In this document: positions 11,684-20,910 of the stretch, one piece after another
How positions within the stretch are numbered: the stretch's first letter is position 1
How the letters are laid out: every line of letters starts with the position of its first letter
IMG/VR virus record: IMGVR_UViG_3300048027_000194
Location: 1-23,503 of that record
Source of the DNA: a virus
Strand: one strand, 5' to 3'
Length of the DNA stretch: 23,503 nucleotides
The notes under the pieces: generated by a model
The model's database searches: none
What the model was told of the DNA's origin: nothing
What the model saw: the letters and a program-made list of their open reading frames with translations, nothing else
Program-made: the position numbers and the translations under genes

Positions 11684-12496
11684 ATGGCGGTAAATATAAA
11701 CACAGTATATCAAACAGTCTTGTATATTTTAAACAAAGAGCAAAGAGGTTATATTCCACCAGCTGAATTTAATAGTTTAGCAGCACAAGTACAAGACGAA
11801 ATATTTCAATCATACTTTCCTGATGGTAATCAAGTAAATAGACTAAATCAAAACAATACACAAAACGATACGGAGTTTTTTAACATGTTTAAAGATATTA
11901 GTTATAAACTATATCCTTTTGAAAGAGAAATTCCTTTTTCTTATGATGCAACTATAGATGGATGGTCAACTCAAGGTATGAACATTTATAAGATAGGTAA
12001 TATAACGGCTACATATGATAGAGCTAACGTAGGTCCAATTCAATTGCAAAATATAACACAATCTGATTGGCTAGGTGGAGCTTCAATAAATCCAATAGTA
12101 CAATTAACTTCTAAGAGTGATTATGATAAAATAACAAGATCTAAGTTAACCGCTCCAACACAGCAATATCCTATATGTTATACTACACACGTTCTTTATA
12201 ATTCGACTGGCCAATACCAAACAGGTAGTTTACTTTTAAAAATATCTCCTCTTCCAAACTCTGTTAGTGTTAACTGCTTAATGTCGCCTAATAGACCTCA
12301 ATGGAATTTTACAGTAGGTTCTCTTGGGCAATACATATATAGCGGATCTTCTATTAATTTTCAATTAGATATTTCTGAAAAAACAAATATAATAACAAAC
12401 ATATTAAAGTATGCTGGAGTTATAGTAAATGATCCTACTGTTATACAAGTAGCAGAGCAAGAGGCTAAGTCTGTAGAAATTAACACAAAATCTTAA
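11684..12496 (+). CDS. Probable head-to-tail ring/adaptor protein (270 aa)
   Basis: The N-terminus (VNINTVYQTVLYILNKEQRG, then YIPPAEFNSLAAQVQDEIFQ) is a helical segment that I associate with ring or tail-tubular structural proteins of crAss-like and marine Bacteroidota podoviruses. The rest is beta-rich with many aromatic and Asn residues. The C-terminus is helical (KTNIITNILKYAGVIVNDPT). Position between capsid and nozzle genes fits a connector ring that sits under the portal. There are no catalytic motifs or membrane segments. The ATG follows an A/T-rich leader right after the long hairpin, and the next gene starts 3 bases after its stop. The assignment is from a remembered family pattern and gene order, so the exact ring position is uncertain. 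Confidence 0.6.
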   Translation: MAVNINTVYQTVLYILNKEQRGYIPPAEFNSLAAQVQDEIFQSYFPDGNQVNRLNQNNTQNDTEFFNMFKDISYKLYPFEREIPFSYDATIDGWSTQGMNIYKIGNITATYDRANVGPIQLQNITQSDWLGGASINPIVQLTSKSDYDKITRSKLTAPTQQYPICYTTHVLYNSTGQYQTGSLLLKISPLPNSVSVNCLMSPNRPQWNFTVGSLGQYIYSGSSINFQLDISEKTNIITNILKYAGVIVNDPTVIQVAEQEAKSVEINTKS

Positions 12497-12499
12497 AAA

Positions 12500-13744
12500 A
12501 TGAGTTATACGGCAAACGCGAGTAGTTTAACAACAGAAACAAACCAACAGTATTATCAAGGTGCTCAAGTGTTCTTTTCTAACGCAAACCTACCTAATCC
12601 AAACGTGCAAGTGTTTACTACTACGTTTAACACTGATTTAATGTATGGAGATCATAATCCTACTAATGTAAAGTACGCGCTAAATAATTTTAAATTATAT
12701 ACTAGTGCTACTGGTTTACCAGGTTCTTTTACAGAATACACATCAGCTTATACTGTTCTTAATAATGCTATAACACTAACAGGATTAGCCGCTTCAACAT
12801 ATGTAGTCGTGCAGTTAAAAACATTAGACGGTGGTAATTATGGTAATCAAGATGCTATTGGAACTACTGTAGAAGAAAATTATGGTGGCTACGAATACTT
12901 AAGTTTAGGCGATATTTGTGATAACTTTATGGTAGGTTATGTTGGTGATGGAAAAATATTACAAAACGCTAAGAAATCTGATGTATTGTTTTTTGCTAAA
13001 AGATCTTTACAAGAGTTTAGCTATGATACTTTAAAATGTATATATTCACAAGAGCTTAACGTGCCTCCTAGTTTAAGTTTGCCATTACCTCAAGACTACG
13101 TAAACTATGTTAGAGTTTCTTGGATAGACCAGCTTGGTATAAAAAGAATTATATATCCAACAAACAATCTTACAACAAGTCCTTACAGTAACCCTATACA
13201 AGATAACACAGGGATTCCAACTCAAGATAATTTTGGCCAAACACTTGAAGGAGATTCTATAACAGAAGATAGATGGAAAACAGCCAACGATACAGTAATA
13301 AGTCAAACGTTTTTTAATAATATAGATGACTATGCTTATTGGGCTAATTATTATGGATTTGATAATAGCATTTTCTACGGTCAACAATACGGTTTAGAAC
13401 CTCAATACTCACAAGTAAATGGCTGGTTTAACATGAATGAAAGAGAAGGCAAGATAAGTTTCTCTAGTAGTTTAGTTGGAAAATTAATAGTCTTAGAATA
13501 TATATCTGATGGTCTTTCTAGTAATGGCAGTAGTAAAATACCTAAAATGGCAGAAGACGCTCTTTATGCATCTATACTATATAACATAGTATCTACGCGA
13601 TCTGGCCAACAAGAGTACACTGTTCAAAGATTGAAAAGAGATAGATCAGCTAAGCTTAGAAACGCTAAAATAAGATTATCAAACATAAAACTAGACGAAA
13701 TAGTTCAAGTAATGCGAGGTAAATCTAAATGGATAAAACACTAA
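12500..13744 (+). CDS. Probable tail adaptor/ring protein (P22 gp4- or T7 gp11-like position) with extra N-terminal beta domain
   Basis: The core, residues ~135-215, has a helical start (LSLGDICDNFMVGYVGDGKI; SDVLFFAKRSLQEFSYDTLK) and then LPLPQDYVNYVRVSWIDQLG, a pattern typical of portal-adaptor proteins in this phage group. The C-terminus is helical and very basic (RLKRDRSAKLRNAKIRLSNI, ending MRGKSKWIKH), suited to contact with the portal or DNA. Residues ~25-125 are Thr/Asn-rich and beta-like, and look like an added domain ahead of the adaptor core. It lies 3 bases after the previous gene and 6 bases before the giant nozzle gene, so the three are probably co-expressed. Inferred role: ring joining portal and nozzle after packaging. 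Confidence 0.6.
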   Translation: MSYTANASSLTTETNQQYYQGAQVFFSNANLPNPNVQVFTTTFNTDLMYGDHNPTNVKYALNNFKLYTSATGLPGSFTEYTSAYTVLNNAITLTGLAASTYVVVQLKTLDGGNYGNQDAIGTTVEENYGGYEYLSLGDICDNFMVGYVGDGKILQNAKKSDVLFFAKRSLQEFSYDTLKCIYSQELNVPPSLSLPLPQDYVNYVRVSWIDQLGIKRIIYPTNNLTTSPYSNPIQDNTGIPTQDNFGQTLEGDSITEDRWKTANDTVISQTFFNNIDDYAYWANYYGFDNSIFYGQQYGLEPQYSQVNGWFNMNEREGKISFSSSLVGKLIVLEYISDGLSSNGSSKIPKMAEDALYASILYNIVSTRSGQQEYTVQRLKRDRSAKLRNAKIRLSNIKLDEIVQVMRGKSKWIKH

Positions 13745-13750
13745 AATTTA

Positions 13751-16700
13751 ATGGCTAAAGCTCAAAATACTTTCTTAAAGTCTAAGATGAATAAAGACTT
13801 AGACGCTCGTATACTACCAAATGGTGAATATAGAGATGCTATAAATGTTCAAATAAGTAAATCAGAAGGAGCACAAGTAGGTAATTTAGAAAATGTTTTA
13901 GGAAACACTTCCGTTTTAAACATTCAAACAGTAACAAATACAACAGACTTAGTTTGTATAGGGAATTTTGCTGATGAAATAAATAGTACTGTTTATTTAT
14001 TTTTAACTGATTATACCGACACTACACCTGACGAGCCAAATTACAGTCCAACAAATGGATCTTGTATAATATCTTACAATGTTCTTTCTGGTTCTTCTGT
14101 TGTTTTAGTTAAAGGTGGTTTTTTAAATTTTTCAACTACTAATTTAATTACAGGTATAAACATATTAGAAACATTATTATTTTTTACAGATAATAGGAAT
14201 CAACCTAGAGTTATAGATGTTTCTTTAGCTAATCCAAACAATCTATCACAACCAATATATTACTCTAGTGAAGACTCTATATCAGTAGCTAAATATAATC
14301 CTTATCAAACTATAGAGCTTTGGCAAAAAAGTATTTTAGGTCAAAGTGCTTCAGTGCCTTACGAAACTACTATGAAAGATGTTAGTAGTAAATTTCTTCC
14401 AAATGGTGGATTAGGTACAAGACTAGGACCTTACACTGGATCCGCAAGTATATTGTTAGACGCAGGGACAGTAGCTGGAGATATATTAAATCCATTAAAC
14501 CCATCAGGAGGTTTTACTAGAGTAGGTTATATAACTTCTTCAGGTGGAGATATAGTTATTATAAGCGGAGCAACTGTAGCCTCTACCTCTTATAATTCTA
14601 GCGCAAATAAGTGGACAATAAATATAAGTGGTGGTAATTTTCCTAGCATACCTAGCAACGAAACATATCAAATAATAATAAATCCTAACCCGTATTATAA
14701 CTCTACTTTTTCAGGTGATCCTGATTATTTAGAAGATAAATTTGTTAGGTTTAGTTACAGATATAGATTTGAAGACAATACTTATTCTATATTTGCTCCA
14801 TTTACACAAACAGCTTTTATACCTAAGCAAGATGGTTATTTTATGTATGTAGATCAAGCAGGTGTTCAAGACGTTGATGATGAATCAGAAACATATAGAA
14901 GTACAGTAGTTTATTTTGTAGAAAATAAAGTTAATAGTATAGATCTTAGAATACCATTACCGTATTTTAATTATGATTTGCAAAATGCTTTAAAAGTGTC
15001 TCAAATTGATATTCTTTATAAAGAATCTGACGGCTTAAGTGTTAAAGTAATTGAAACAATACCTGTTAGCGAAATAACTACATCTTCTGGTATATGCTTA
15101 GCAGCTGGCGCTCAAACAGTTTCAGCAGGCAGCGCAATAAATGTAGACAATATAAGAGGAGGTATAAATGTAGGATCTAGAGTTATTGGATCAGGTGTTC
15201 CTGATAATACTTTTGTAACAAGTTTTACACCTACAGATCCCAGTAATCCTGTAGCTGGAGTATTGATTGTAGATCAAAACGTTGTTTTAGCAGATAATGA
15301 TTTTATGACTGTTGGAGATATTAGTTATTTTGAATATAACTATAATTCTAGCAAACCCACTAAAACATTACCTGAATCTGAATTAATAAGAGTATATGAT
15401 AAAGTTCCAGTAAAAGCCTTAGCTCAAGAGGTGGCTGGTAATAGAGTAATGTATGGTAACTTTATAAACAAAAACAATCCACCTGATTTCATAAACTATA
15501 ATGTAGCGTGCACACCTAAATCTGACTTTACTTTAAATGAAGCTACTGTCGCGTATAGTGGTGGAGCTGCTACGTATTCTGCTGGAAGTACTATAGCTGT
15601 CAATGTAAGTAAGGCTCCTGAAGGGTTTTTTGCTGGTATGATAATTACTTGTAATGCAGCTGGGGCTATAATACCAAATGGAACTCTTTTAACTAGCACT
15701 AGTAATAACGGTGCTGGTTCTGCGAACATAACATTAGATCAAAATATAACTCTACCTAGCGGATCTGTTGTTTTAATTTTTGAACCAGGTGGTAATGTAG
15801 AGACTACAACTAGTATTGTAGAATACCCTAATAGCTCTGTTAAAACAAATAGAAACTATCAAGTAGGTTTTGTACTTTCAGATAGATACGGTAGACAGTC
15901 TAGCGTGATATTATCAAACAATAAAGAAACAATAACCGTAGGAGGTATTTCATATTCTGGATCTACTTTGTACTCTCCTTATATAGACAATATTGATAAA
16001 GATCAATGGCCTGGTAATTCTATAAAGTTATTAGTTAATGAGCTTATAGCTCCAGACAATTCATACAATGGAAACATTAATAGTGCTTCTTATAATCCTC
16101 TAGGATGGTATTCTTATAAAGTTGTTGTTAAACAAACAGAGCAAGATTATTACAATGTTTATCTGCCAGGTATTATGGCTGGTTATCCTGAAGATAATAT
16201 AATTGAACTTGGAAAAACATCTCATGCTGTTTTAATAAACGATAATATTAATAAAGTTCCTAGAGACTTAAGCGAAGTAGGTCCTGATCAAAAACAATTT
16301 AGAAGCTCTGTTCAGTTATTTGGTAGAGTAGAAAACACAAATATAGCTATAAGCACAAATACAGGTGCTAGCAATGAACAGTATTATCCTGAAAGAAGCT
16401 CAGATACTGTAAGTTCTATAGCTACAGCTAAAGATCTTTTTGAATATGACGCGTCTAATCCACCTCAACCTAATTACTTTCCACAGTTTTATTCCATAGA
16501 TTCAAATCCTTTAATAGCTAGAATAAGTACTGAAAAACAAATAGGTGAAATATCTACTACTAACTACGCTCCAGCTTCAGCAAAAGTTAATATTGCTGTT
16601 ACTAATGGTAATGTGGTTCAGTTAACAAATATTTCTGGGACTGTTAGTCCTAATGATTTAGTTTCTGGAGGAGATTTACCTGAAGGAGTTTACGTTTTTT

Positions 16701-18985
16701 CTATAAGCGCGGGTCCTCCATTTACAATAACATTAAGACGTGAAACCTCTAATTTTGATACTAATTTAGACGTAGACACTGTTTTAACGTTTACACCATC
16801 TTCTAATCCTAGCACAAATCCAACTCCAAAACATCCTGGTATACAGTATTTAGCTGTTTATGAAACAGAGCCTGTAGAAAGTTTATTAGATATATACTGG
16901 GAAACATCTACGTCAGGTTTAATATCTGATTTAAATTCTGCTGTTTTAAATAATCAATCCACGCCTGCTGCAGCTAATATCTCAGGGTGGAATGCAGACA
17001 CTTTTGATGAAGGATTATCGGCGCAGTCTAATATATTGGCACAACCTTTTTCTTTAGTAAATGATTTTGGGCTTGCGATAACATTAGATCCAAGCAACGG
17101 AGATTATTTACAGTTATTAGGAGTAATAAATGGACAAGGTGTTAATGTTGCTAATTTTAATCAAGATCCATCATTTCCACTTCCTTTGTATTTTGAATTA
17201 GTTGACACTAGTTCTGGAACAACAGGTGTTGGCCCTTGGCAAATTAGAACAACAGACTCAAGTGACATTGCAGATAATTTTTATGATAATATTTTCTTTA
17301 TGTATAATGAAGAAAATAGTGTTACTAATCGTCTTAGAAATTTTACGTTTCATTTTAGAATACAAGTAAATGGGCAAGTAAGTGATTTATTTGAACAAGC
17401 TAATTTAAGCAATGTTAAACCTTTATTTACAAAAATAACCCAAGGTCCTACTACAACAATACCAGGATCTCCATTAACACCTCCATCTATACCTCTATTT
17501 CCAAATATTCTTGCTGTTGAAGCTAATAGAGATTCAATAAATATAGCTTTTATAGAATTTCAAAATGGAGCTAACAACCCAGTTTTAGCTAGAAACACCC
17601 CTGACTTTATATTAGGAGGAGATCTTAGTCTAATTAGCAATAATCAATTAGGCTACGATGGCATAATAAAGGCAAAAATAGGTAGTAATGACGAGTCCGC
17701 TGAAGATGCTTTTTTAGATGGTGAGCCTATATTTAGAATTGAAACCTTCTCGCTTGCATCTGGTCAAATCAACGCTAAATTAATTAACATACAAAGTGAA
17801 AATCCTTATTTACAAGCCTTAGTTTACTATGTTACAATAAGAGTCCAAGATGCTGGTGATTTTCAAGATATAATTTTTGAAGTAGACATGAGTTTAGATG
17901 TTCCTACAGATGTAATTAAAAATCAAGTAGCTTATACAAATGTGTTGGGTAGTGGCTATCAAGGTTTGTGGAATTCTCAATATGGTGTAGGACCTATATA
18001 TACATATCCTACTATAGCTGGGCATCCTTATACTTTAATAGATTTAACTGCTGCATCTATACCTGGATTATTACCAGCTCAAAGAGGTTACTACATATAT
18101 GCTCAAGGTTTTTTTAATACTCCTAATTTTCCTAGTAGTTTTGATACAAGATCTAGGTTTAATAGACCTCTTACTGAATACTCTGGAATACCACAAGATT
18201 TATCTTTTGGAGGACCACCTATAGTTTTACCCTGGAATGAACCCAACTCTCAAAACCACAAAATAATAAGAGAATCAGATCCAACTGTTATTAATTTTGG
18301 CGGAACTACTCCGATACAAATTTACAGTGAATGCACTCTTTTATCTTCTTCTACTATTGGAACAGCTCCTATTCCGGGAGATGGAGGTAGAACTAGACTT
18401 AATGTTCAAGTAGATTCTGGTGTTTTTCCTTTTAATAGTATGCAGGTTTTTGTAGGTGACCCAAACACTGAAGTTCCGAGAAGAGACGCTCAAATTTCTA
18501 ATGGTGGATGTAGCACCTGCTCAGGAGGTTTACTTAATTTTCAAATGCTAGTTCTTCAAGTTGATGAAGTAAATGGAACTGTTGATCTTTGGGGAAATAT
18601 TTCAAATGCTTTTAATTTAACAGTAGGTCAAAAAGTTTATTTTCTCGCAGGTAGTTCTAGTTTTTATGCAAATGATTTTGATTTATTACCAAGCGCTCAA
18701 AGTTGGTGGAATAATCCTAATGGAAGTTCAGTATATGGAAGCCCTTGGTATTTTTCACAAGATTTAAATAAAGTTAGAAAAATGTTTGAATATTCTGCGT
18801 GGACTGGATTAAGGATTCTTTACAATCTTCCTGGAGTAGATGGAGAGTATCAACATTCTTGCCCTACAAATTGTATACATCCAGGATCTACATCAGGTTA
18901 TCAAACTAACTATCTTAGTAACACATATGCTGGAATAGAATGTGAAGTGCAAGATTATAGTAATTTAAATTTTGAAATAATATAA
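13751..18985 (+). CDS. Giant beta-rich tail nozzle/'muzzle'-type protein (1744 aa)
   Basis: The opening segment, residues ~14-52 (NKDLDARILPNGEYRDAINV, then QISKSEGAQVGNLENVLGN), is typical of nozzle or tail-stabilisation proteins of podoviruses (P22 gp10 / T7 gp12 type, and the crAss 'muzzle'), whose body is a beta-propeller. Propeller-like strands follow (LVCIGNFADEINSTVYLFLT; GINILETLLFFTDNRNQPRV). The regular body is interrupted by Ser/Thr/Gly-rich modules at ~444-523, ~596-682 and ~943-1018 that resemble each other and two modules in the next gene. The C-terminus has cysteines at 1587 and 1590 (GCSTCSGG) and at 1704, 1708 and 1731. The length greatly exceeds P22 or T7 nozzle proteins. 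Inferred role: the distal tail tube through which DNA leaves. Confident it is a tail protein; less sure of the exact homologue. Confidence 0.7.
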   Translation: MAKAQNTFLKSKMNKDLDARILPNGEYRDAINVQISKSEGAQVGNLENVLGNTSVLNIQTVTNTTDLVCIGNFADEINSTVYLFLTDYTDTTPDEPNYSPTNGSCIISYNVLSGSSVVLVKGGFLNFSTTNLITGINILETLLFFTDNRNQPRVIDVSLANPNNLSQPIYYSSEDSISVAKYNPYQTIELWQKSILGQSASVPYETTMKDVSSKFLPNGGLGTRLGPYTGSASILLDAGTVAGDILNPLNPSGGFTRVGYITSSGGDIVIISGATVASTSYNSSANKWTINISGGNFPSIPSNETYQIIINPNPYYNSTFSGDPDYLEDKFVRFSYRYRFEDNTYSIFAPFTQTAFIPKQDGYFMYVDQAGVQDVDDESETYRSTVVYFVENKVNSIDLRIPLPYFNYDLQNALKVSQIDILYKESDGLSVKVIETIPVSEITTSSGICLAAGAQTVSAGSAINVDNIRGGINVGSRVIGSGVPDNTFVTSFTPTDPSNPVAGVLIVDQNVVLADNDFMTVGDISYFEYNYNSSKPTKTLPESELIRVYDKVPVKALAQEVAGNRVMYGNFINKNNPPDFINYNVACTPKSDFTLNEATVAYSGGAATYSAGSTIAVNVSKAPEGFFAGMIITCNAAGAIIPNGTLLTSTSNNGAGSANITLDQNITLPSGSVVLIFEPGGNVETTTSIVEYPNSSVKTNRNYQVGFVLSDRYGRQSSVILSNNKETITVGGISYSGSTLYSPYIDNIDKDQWPGNSIKLLVNELIAPDNSYNGNINSASYNPLGWYSYKVVVKQTEQDYYNVYLPGIMAGYPEDNIIELGKTSHAVLINDNINKVPRDLSEVGPDQKQFRSSVQLFGRVENTNIAISTNTGASNEQYYPERSSDTVSSIATAKDLFEYDASNPPQPNYFPQFYSIDSNPLIARISTEKQIGEISTTNYAPASAKVNIAVTNGNVVQLTNISGTVSPNDLVSGGDLPEGVYVFSISAGPPFTITLRRETSNFDTNLDVDTVLTFTPSSNPSTNPTPKHPGIQYLAVYETEPVESLLDIYWETSTSGLISDLNSAVLNNQSTPAAANISGWNADTFDEGLSAQSNILAQPFSLVNDFGLAITLDPSNGDYLQLLGVINGQGVNVANFNQDPSFPLPLYFELVDTSSGTTGVGPWQIRTTDSSDIADNFYDNIFFMYNEENSVTNRLRNFTFHFRIQVNGQVSDLFEQANLSNVKPLFTKITQGPTTTIPGSPLTPPSIPLFPNILAVEANRDSINIAFIEFQNGANNPVLARNTPDFILGGDLSLISNNQLGYDGIIKAKIGSNDESAEDAFLDGEPIFRIETFSLASGQINAKLINIQSENPYLQALVYYVTIRVQDAGDFQDIIFEVDMSLDVPTDVIKNQVAYTNVLGSGYQGLWNSQYGVGPIYTYPTIAGHPYTLIDLTAASIPGLLPAQRGYYIYAQGFFNTPNFPSSFDTRSRFNRPLTEYSGIPQDLSFGGPPIVLPWNEPNSQNHKIIRESDPTVINFGGTTPIQIYSECTLLSSSTIGTAPIPGDGGRTRLNVQVDSGVFPFNSMQVFVGDPNTEVPRRDAQISNGGCSTCSGGLLNFQMLVLQVDEVNGTVDLWGNISNAFNLTVGQKVYFLAGSSSFYANDFDLLPSAQSWWNNPNGSSVYGSPWYFSQDLNKVRKMFEYSAWTGLRILYNLPGVDGEYQHSCPTNCIHPGSTSGYQTNYLSNTYAGIECEVQDYSNLNFEII
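15081..15320 (+). other. Inserted beta module, copy A
   Basis: Coding module in the 1744-aa tail protein, residues ~444-523. Landmarks: AGSAINVDNIRGGINVGSRV, IGSGVPDNTFVTSF, VLIVDQNVVLADNDFMTVG. The shared plan is G-S-x-V-x-G-x-G-(I/V)-P-x-x-T-x-V-x-S-(F/Y), then a spacer, then (L/V)-x-(L/V)-x-x-x-(V/I)-x-L and a final strand. Confidence 0.55.
15535..15795 (+). other. Inserted beta module, copy B
   Basis: Residues ~596-682 of the 1744-aa protein. Landmarks: AGSTIAVNVSKAPEGFFAGM, AIIPNGTLLTSTSNNGAGSA, NITLDQNITLPSGSVVLIFE. It follows the same order of elements as copy A, including DQN(I/V)x(L)x, but is diverged. Confidence 0.5.
16577..16803 (+). other. Inserted beta module, copy C
   Basis: Residues ~943-1018 of the 1744-aa protein. 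Landmarks: NGNVVQLTNISGTVSPNDLV, SGGDLPEGVYVFSISAGPPF, TITLRRE, VLTFTPS. This is the most divergent copy, but the element order (strand, G-D-L-P-x-G-V-x-V-x-S, strand, L-T-F) is kept. Confidence 0.45.
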
Positions 18986-19020
18986 AAGTAATTTATATTT
19001 AAAATAAGTAATAATTAAAT

Positions 19021-20910
19021 ATGGCAGGCGCAGTAATAGAAGTTAAATATTTTAACACATTTATACTTAAAAAAGTAAATGTAGGTGATAAACAAGTTTG
19101 GAATGGCTCTTTTGGTATACCAGGAGGCACAAACGGTATTGGTGGTTATCCTACTTTTGGCTCTGGTGTTGGTGGTGATTACAGCTGGGCTATTGAAGAA
19201 TCTAGAATAAGGGGTGGTTATAATAATACAACTGTAGATTTTGGAGCAAAAGCTTATATAGTAGAAGAAGAACCTCAAGGCACTAGAAAATTTAATACTC
19301 TTATATACTCTGGTATATTTAATTCTAGAACTGGTATAAACCAAACAAATGTTTTTTCTGTAGGTGAAGATATTACTAAATCTACAGATCCAGCTAATGG
19401 TTCTATACAAAAGCTATATGCAGAAGATACTAATTTAAATATATTTCAAGAACTAAAAGTAAGCAGAGCATTAATAGACAAAGATGCTATATACGCCGCT
19501 GAGGGTGGAGGAACTGTTACTGCTAGTAATTTAGTAATTGGTGTTATACAACCATATGCGGGTAAATTTGGTATATCTCAAAATCCAGAAAGTTTTGCTA
19601 CATATGGTTATAGAAAGTATTTTGCAGATCAAAACAACAATGCAATTCTAAGATTATCTAGAGACGGTATTGAAGAAATATCTTCTTATGGAATGAAAGA
19701 TTTTTTCAGAGACAAACTAAGTGGTGTAAATACTTTTTTTAATATTGGTAAAATTATAGGAGCTTATGACATACGTAATGACGACTATTTATTATCTTTA
19801 CAAAACAATATTTTTTATAATACTTTAAACTTTGATGAAAAAGCAAAAGGATGGGTTAGCTTTTTTAGTTATTCTCCAGATCAAGCCTTTAGTTTAAGAA
19901 ATAACTTTTACACAGTAAAAACAGTAGGAGGACAAGCTCAAACAAACGGAGCTGTTACAAGTTCTACTAATTTAGTAATAGATAATGTTCAAAACTTTAT
20001 CCAAGCAGGATCTATAGTTACAACTTTAGGTTCTGGAATACCTGCAAATACAACTGTAGTAAGCTTTAACGCGACAACAGGTGCTTTAGTTTTAAGTGCT
20101 GCTGTTACGCTTGCAAACAATATAACATTAACATTTAGTGGTGTTGCGCAATTATGGAAACATTACGATGAACTAGTCAATAGAAATAACTTTTATGGAC
20201 AAAATAATAGAAGTAGTATAACTTTTGTTTTTAATCCTAACCCTGTTAAATCTAAAACTTTTAAAACAATAGCTTATGAAGGAAGCAGCGGATGGGAAGT
20301 AAGTTCATTTATTTCAGATCCTACTGGATCAAACAGAACTTCTTCAAACACTTTTACAACAAGTAACGATTCTACTTTTAGAATTACAAGCTACGATGAA
20401 GGAGAATACGCTATAATAAACACTCAAGCAACAGGCTTAGCGGCATCGACCAATACTACGGTTTTATTAAATACAACTACAGTTACTGGTCAAATATTAA
20501 CTGGTGGAGATGTTAGTGGTATAGGTGTAATACCAGGAACTCGAGTAGTTTCATACGTTGCTACATCAGGTTTATTAACTGTAGATCAAAATTTAAATAT
20601 AGCAATAGGAGCAAGTTTAAGTTTTTCTAGTGGAGTTCCTCAATCGCAATATTTAGCTGTTTTTGGAACAACTAACCCAGCGGAACAAAAATACTATGCA
20701 GGCTTTAATAGAAAAGAAAATAAATATGTAGCTAACCTGTTTAATAACACTCAAGCTATGCCAGATGAAGTTCATTTTGGAGAGCAAATAGGCGGTATAA
20801 AAGGCTTTTATGCTACTGTAAAACTAAGCACAGATACTACAACAGATTTTGGTGGAGAGAAGAATTTATTTGTAGCAGAATCAGAATATATAATGAATAA
20901 TGGATATTAA
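19021..20910 (+). CDS. Second nozzle/tail protein with two inserted beta modules (629 aa)
   Basis: A beta-rich tail protein that seems to continue the nozzle cassette. Its body has patterned segments (NTLIYSGIFNSRTGINQTNV, SIQKLYAEDTNLNIFQELKV, FATYGYRKYFADQNNNAILR, LSRDGIEEISSYGMKDFFRD and IIGAYDIRNDDYLLSLQ) that read as successive propeller-type blades. I recall this set from tail proteins of marine and crAss-like podoviruses. Two modules at residues ~306-377 and ~469-541 match the modules in the upstream 1744-aa gene. There is no signal peptide. The start lies 35 bases after the upstream stop behind an A/T-rich leader. The two proteins may be parts of one nozzle assembly, possibly a split version of a single ancestral gene (inference). 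Confidence 0.65.
   Translation: MAGAVIEVKYFNTFILKKVNVGDKQVWNGSFGIPGGTNGIGGYPTFGSGVGGDYSWAIEESRIRGGYNNTTVDFGAKAYIVEEEPQGTRKFNTLIYSGIFNSRTGINQTNVFSVGEDITKSTDPANGSIQKLYAEDTNLNIFQELKVSRALIDKDAIYAAEGGGTVTASNLVIGVIQPYAGKFGISQNPESFATYGYRKYFADQNNNAILRLSRDGIEEISSYGMKDFFRDKLSGVNTFFNIGKIIGAYDIRNDDYLLSLQNNIFYNTLNFDEKAKGWVSFFSYSPDQAFSLRNNFYTVKTVGGQAQTNGAVTSSTNLVIDNVQNFIQAGSIVTTLGSGIPANTTVVSFNATTGALVLSAAVTLANNITLTFSGVAQLWKHYDELVNRNNFYGQNNRSSITFVFNPNPVKSKTFKTIAYEGSSGWEVSSFISDPTGSNRTSSNTFTTSNDSTFRITSYDEGEYAIINTQATGLAASTNTTVLLNTTTVTGQILTGGDVSGIGVIPGTRVVSYVATSGLLTVDQNLNIAIGASLSFSSGVPQSQYLAVFGTTNPAEQKYYAGFNRKENKYVANLFNNTQAMPDEVHFGEQIGGIKGFYATVKLSTDTTTDFGGEKNLFVAESEYIMNNGY
19936..20150 (+). other. Inserted beta module, copy D
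   Basis: Residues ~306-377 of the 629-aa protein. Landmarks: TNLVIDNVQNFIQAGSIVTT, LGSGIPANTTVVSFNATTGA, LVLSAAVTLANNITLTFSG. This is the clearest example of the module. It separates NNFYTVKTVGG from QLWKHYDELVNRNNFYG, which otherwise look like continuous tail sequence. Confidence 0.6.
20425..20642 (+). other. Inserted beta module, copy E
   Basis: Residues ~469-541 of the 629-aa protein. Landmarks: NTTVLLNTTTVTGQILTGGD, VSGIGVIPGTRVVSYVATSG, LLTVDQNLNIAIGASLSFSS. It shares the DQN element with copies A and B, and the IPxxTxVVS(F/Y) element with copy D. Confidence 0.6.

Follow-up and report, generated by a model that had tools for sequence, protein, structure and literature searches.

Recurrent insertion of a small β module in the split muzzle of a marine crAss-like phage

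Ig-like accessory domains of tailed phages are small β domains that occur at various places in several virion proteins, with a patchy distribution. Among crAss-like phages, the BACON tandem repeats of crAssphage are β domains whose copy number varies within a crAss protein (PMC6949934). For the muzzle of these phages, Bayfield et al. (2023; PMC10172136) describe surface loops as well as crass and IG2 insertions, which alter muzzle length and possibly its surface properties. The muzzle protein gp44 of φcrAss001 (7QOK) belongs to the same protein family as the two proteins analyzed here, P1 and P2. In φcrAss001 this protein is a single chain, whereas here it is encoded by two genes, and both of them contain copies of one small module.

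Muzzle genes and module copies in the window

The window, that is, the whole analyzed stretch of 23,503 nucleotides, comprises the structural genes of a crAss-like phage in one operon: TerL, portal, MCP, a ring-type protein, a second tail structural protein, P1, and P2. By the PHROGs of its genes, the window has the order TerL, portal, MCP, ring proteins, muzzle, and the same order was found in phi38:1 and elemo. The phage is marine and related to the crAss phages of the gut. Relatives were found in MAGs of Bacteroidetes and Saprospiraceae, which is compatible with Bacteroidota hosts. The two genes of interest are as follows.

13751..18985, + strand: P1, N-terminal and distal part of the split crAss-like muzzle, 1744 aa (phrog_14478, 1.8e-38)
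19021..20910, + strand: P2, second muzzle part (remaining propeller and MUZ_C domain), 629 aa (Pfam PF25729)

P1 and P2 are one crAss-like muzzle, because the crAss_MUZ_C domain (PF25729) is present in P2 at residues 387-463 (1.4e-11, 45 bits, cut-off 27), both proteins can be aligned to gp44, and the φcrAss001 muzzle (7qok) is the best PDB match of the AlphaFold2 model of P2 (E 3e-10). In the HHalign comparisons, gp44 residues 1-439 corresponded to the module-free P1 backbone (prob 100%, E 9e-43) and residues 1030-1294 to the module-free P2 family (E 2e-35). The muzzle is split in the window and in those relatives for which both genes were examined; crAss001, phi38:1, and elemo have a single muzzle gene.

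Some further features of the region were observed. The break between the muzzle genes (18986-19020 with the flanking genes) lies near the IG2-to-propeller return of gp44, equivalent to a point between residues ~439 and 1030, probably 905-1030, so that the propeller would need two chains in the split-muzzle marine clade. The muzzle is likewise split in the MAG relatives L204 and L205. Positions 3-1799 encode a fibre protein with a C-terminal Peptidase_S74 (endosialidase-type chaperone) and many GYQAGY-type repeats resembling the head repeats of trimeric autotransporters. At 12500-12870, about 120 N-terminal residues of a 414-aa structural protein lie outside its PHROG match and form a putative added domain.

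The module copies in P1 and P2 are listed below; bit scores refer to the family HMM except where the s1-site HMM is named.

14402..14686, + strand: probable sixth, divergent module, 's1' site, IG1 region, P1 residues 218-312 (s1-site HMM, 19.4 bits)
15089..15319, + strand: module A, P1 residues 447-523, IG1 region of gp44 (58 bits)
15545..15793, + strand: module B, P1 residues 599-681, IG2 region of gp44 (35 bits)
16568..16804, + strand: module C, P1 residues 940-1018, crass-domain region (43 bits)
19924..20142, + strand: module D, P2 residues 302-374, propeller β-hairpin (67 bits)
20416..20631, + strand: module E, P2 residues 466-537, just after MUZ_C (37 bits)

Modules A-E are homologous copies of one domain of ~72 aa. 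The family model, an iterated model of 72 positions, scored them at 35-67 bits, with a maximum of 11 bits in about 600 shuffles and at most 2.9 bits for the reversed sequence; the five-copy recurrence in two adjacent proteins, proposed in an earlier note from the sequence alone, is thus real. In pairwise Smith-Waterman comparisons against 500 shuffles, the scores of A-D and A-E were reached in 0/500 cases each and those of A-B and D-E in 1/500 each; the pairwise result was clear for A, D, and E and weaker for B and C, module C being weak when taken alone. A leave-window-out model, built solely from the D- and E-site modules of other phages, gave 68 bits for D, 65 for E, 40 for A, 10.5 for C, and 3.7 for B, with a shuffle maximum of 5.4. 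Module B is below this maximum and therefore needs the wider family profile.

A further model was built solely from the third site (s1) of other phages. With this model, P1 residues 218-312 obtained the highest score, followed by A (14.7 bits), B (14.3 bits), and C (9.5 bits), with a shuffle maximum of 7.8 bits. The same segment scored -0.6 bits with the general model, and its HHalign test was also negative or weak. In total, the window contains at least five copies and probably six. The coordinates in the earlier note were correct to a few residues for A-E, and the sixth copy, located outside the range considered there, had been missed. Placement in the propeller holds for module D, whose gp44 equivalent is the turn of FYAFK-DG-KMW, but not for the four others, which are located in IG1, IG2, the crass-domain region, and just after MUZ_C.

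Predicted fold and composition of the module

Module D was predicted by AlphaFold2, with 54 aligned modules, as a compact six-stranded β fold (mean pLDDT 96.4; strands 3-7, 11-23, 31-34, 44-49, 54-63, and 68-72). The module is thus, by prediction, a separately folding domain and not a set of ordinary, unrelated propeller strands; the latter outcome would have spoken against an inserted domain. In the P2 model, the junctions between module and host are crossed by long single strands (295-308, 369-380, 462-472, and 532-540), as would be expected had the module replaced a hairpin turn.

No match to the module was found in the Pfam, NCBIfam, or PDB sequence families, and the comparison of its model with the PDB gave no significant structural match (best E 0.11). 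The nearest PDB folds, all weak, were those of phage tail tube, baseplate, and tail-tip proteins and the N-terminal β-barrel domain of F1-ATPase; the term six-stranded barrel would be a reading of these weak matches. The best matches in the viral structure library were proteins of the cyanophages P-HM1 (E3SMS4, TM 0.88 over the module) and S-PM2 (Q5GQW2, TM 0.79 over the module). The matching regions belong to an unnamed domain of these cyanophage proteins, and their likeness to the module is one of predicted fold.

Modules are rich in T, S, V, and G and depleted in W/Y/F/H (4.8 vs 12.2%) and K/R (2.1 vs 6.7%), with W at 0.1%, Y at 1.4%, and H at 0.0%. Conservation is confined to structural Gly and turn positions. 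Scanning of 54 module members yielded no match to CBM, lectin, or BACON families at E<=1, and matches to Ig-like Pfam families were isolated and weak (E 0.009 and 0.16), with no consistent family. Carbohydrate binding, considered in the earlier note, is hence unsupported by the module sequences. Because aromatic and basic residues are depleted and only structural positions are conserved, the composition appears to favour a robust, bland decoration or spacer over a conserved binding site.

Distribution, exchange, and nesting of modules

The survey covered 177 non-redundant relatives (94 P1 and 83 P2), in which 369 modules were called at about 20 sites (~14 in P1 and ~7 in P2); the count is approximate owing to nested copies, and a few singleton positions may be alignment noise. 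The number of modules per protein varies from 0 to 6 in P1 and from 0 to 2 in P2. In P1, the sites of modules A, B, and C are filled in 72, 84, and ~75 of the 94 relatives, respectively. Module E was found in about half of the P2 orthologues and module D in only 10 of 83; elsewhere, the conserved D-site flanks, SFFSYxPDQMFSLRNxFYS and LWxHY, are separated by 0-15 residues. Four relatives (L015-L018) have a module ~10 residues beyond the D site. On the tree of the module-free P2 backbone, this shifted module has a single origin and module D requires 6 changes, whatever their direction, at least 4 of them forced by well-supported branches. The MAG relatives L204 and L205 lack modules in both proteins. 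Module content therefore differs among relatives and empty D sites retain intact flanks, contrary to a picture of the same modules in the same places everywhere.

For modules at the main sites, the best match is almost always the same site in other phages, so most of the spread took place long ago and most insertions have since been inherited. Modules at sites A and B diverged only moderately faster than the backbone. Since the s1, A, B, and C sites are filled in most relatives, the copies there may have become structural.

Traces of movement were found at the DNA level. In the relatives L062 and L066, the DNA on either side of module C is closely similar (90% identity across 2.6 kb upstream, 91.5% across 1.1 kb downstream), but the ~270 bp in between share no detectable similarity and code for different modules. 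This pair represents a recombinational exchange. A similar pattern, with more divergence, makes a swap probable for L122/L127. L042 carries one module at site B and another at a private site, and the two have 72.7% DNA identity over 220 nt; this pair arose by copying within the gene. Other apparent cases were rejected: seemingly 100% identical DNA at different sites reflected overlapping coordinates of nested hits (the L042 pair being genuine), and in the putative swaps L010/L012 and L050/L055 outer nested modules had been compared with inner ones.

Twelve related proteins, which form one clade, have a nested arrangement at the E site: one module interrupts another and occupies the loop that joins strands 4 and 5 of the outer copy. 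When the inner module was excised and the outer halves were joined, the score increased by more than 5 bits in only 5 of 22 C-site and 0 of 12 E-site cases. As this gain was so rare, nesting was re-tested by the model positions matched by each flank, with single-module controls. The left E-site flanks matched model positions 1-46 and the right ones 51-72, each scoring in 11 of 12 proteins, compared with 3/28 (left) and 1/28 (right) in the controls. The same arrangement, with weaker statistics, was found at the C site in about 20 proteins.

The module was also found in other virion proteins by collection searches with single modules as queries; a query with the module consensus matched only CRP-345. 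Orthologues of the 270-aa ring-type protein of the window (11684-12496, itself without a module) carry it at two positions, one in L056, L140, and L150 and the other in L071 (L056:2590-3573, L150:6775-7755, L071:2838-3833). Outside the crAss-like phages, it is present in tail sheath proteins (L182, identified by a PHROG match; L183 to L186, which resemble L182 and have its length; and L203), with a textbook copy near residues 150-220 of the sheath-like proteins at L182:594-2504 and L203:1176-2873. It was further found in phrog_3287 virion proteins (L187, L188, L191, and L199), in a Roseobacter phage tail protein, and in the nozzle of the Prochlorococcus phage P-RSP2 (L163:2689-5561). The latter is annotated as two ORFs with the module in the N-terminal one, and its Pfam nozzle match ends at position 117 and resumes at 235. 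The β-barrel of the crAss MCP I-domain was considered as a source of the module and rejected: HHalign of the module against the MCP alignment gave no homology to the E-loop insertion (prob 0.4%, with the matched region outside the I-domain).

Together, presence and absence with intact flanks, the shifted site, the swap, the intragenic copy, nesting, and occurrence in other structural genes support the earlier suggestion of a spreading decoration domain.

Interpretation and comparison with known systems

The module is probably a small, self-contained six-stranded β domain, used by marine crAss-like phages as a promiscuous insertion cassette in their exposed muzzle, where it would vary the tail-tip surface. 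Its most likely identity would be a surface-variation domain inserted into β-hairpin turns. Both module ends would lie on strands continuing those of the host hairpin, so the module could replace the turn with the host fold unbroken, and the replaced turn may belong to another module copy. New copies would arise by duplication inside the gene, and recombination through the conserved flanks could pass them from one phage to another. With a hexameric muzzle as in φcrAss001, and with six copies in each subunit, the tail tip would bear about 36 modules. They could change its surface (spacing, steric masking, receptor contact, or stability), leaving gate and propeller untouched. A wider reading is plausible but more tentative: an unnamed phage-wide domain family that fits any β-hairpin turn, including its own, would serve as a surface-variation cassette across outer tail proteins, namely muzzle, nozzle, ring, and sheath of several tailed-phage types, and would build nested decorations.

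Convergent β-strand and turn composition in low-complexity T/V/G-rich segments is a highly improbable cause of the likeness between copies and is refuted for A, D, and E. The biased composition and the weakness of B and C in the leave-window-out test are in its favour, but shuffles of the same composition and the reversed sequence do not reproduce the scores, the elements follow one another in the same order along all 72 positions, and cross-site DNA identity in L042 and the nested halves speak for homology. More of a contender, though still rather unlikely as the full account, is a role of the modules as structural spacers or stabilisers, which would make the muzzle stiffer or hold neighbouring subunits together and whose turnover would be largely neutral. 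The bland T/S/V/G-rich composition, the mostly occupied sites A, B, and s1, and the module-bearing sheath and ring proteins fit this role. However, relatives without D or E, as well as the module-less L204 and L205, keep the muzzle genes, so the fold does not depend on the modules.

Sheath and ring proteins are unlikely receptor binders, and their modules weigh against host recognition, in which receptor- or glycan-binding modules would turn over with changes of the host surface. This explanation is improbable also in view of the depleted aromatic and basic residues, the purely structural conservation, and the lack of CBM, lectin, or BACON matches, even though the tail-tip location and the pattern of presence, absence, and swaps would suit it, and the crass domain has been proposed to contact the cell surface.

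With the insertion cassette as the preferred explanation, muzzle length variation in crAss-like phages gains a concrete and countable mechanism, one domain family with about 20 insertion positions, and a recurrent cause of such variation is identified in this clade. Gain, loss, swap, and nesting can be traced in sequence, and remodelling of the tail tip without touching the DNA gate becomes testable. Since related phages gain, lose, swap, and nest them, the modules resemble exchangeable surface components more than fixed parts of the machinery. The analysis also points to a domain that Pfam lacks and that reappears in the sheath and nozzle proteins of further phages; because it can nest within itself, it might serve as a natural scaffold when domains are to be placed into β-hairpins of virion proteins.

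No module was found in gp44 with the module model (best -0.3 bits), and a recurring homologous module is not described in the excerpted account of gp44 (PMC10172136). A limited literature search yielded no description of the module, which does not disprove that one exists. Unlike the tandem array of crAssphage BACON domains, the modules analyzed here are dispersed and nested insertions without a BACON match. Like the Ig-like accessory domains of phages, the module is optional and inserted in several virion proteins; it differs from them in having no consistent Ig Pfam match, and its best fold neighbours, all of them weak, were phage tail domains and the F1-ATPase barrel rather than Ig folds. 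The module belongs to a known kind, the promiscuous accessory β domains of phage virions.
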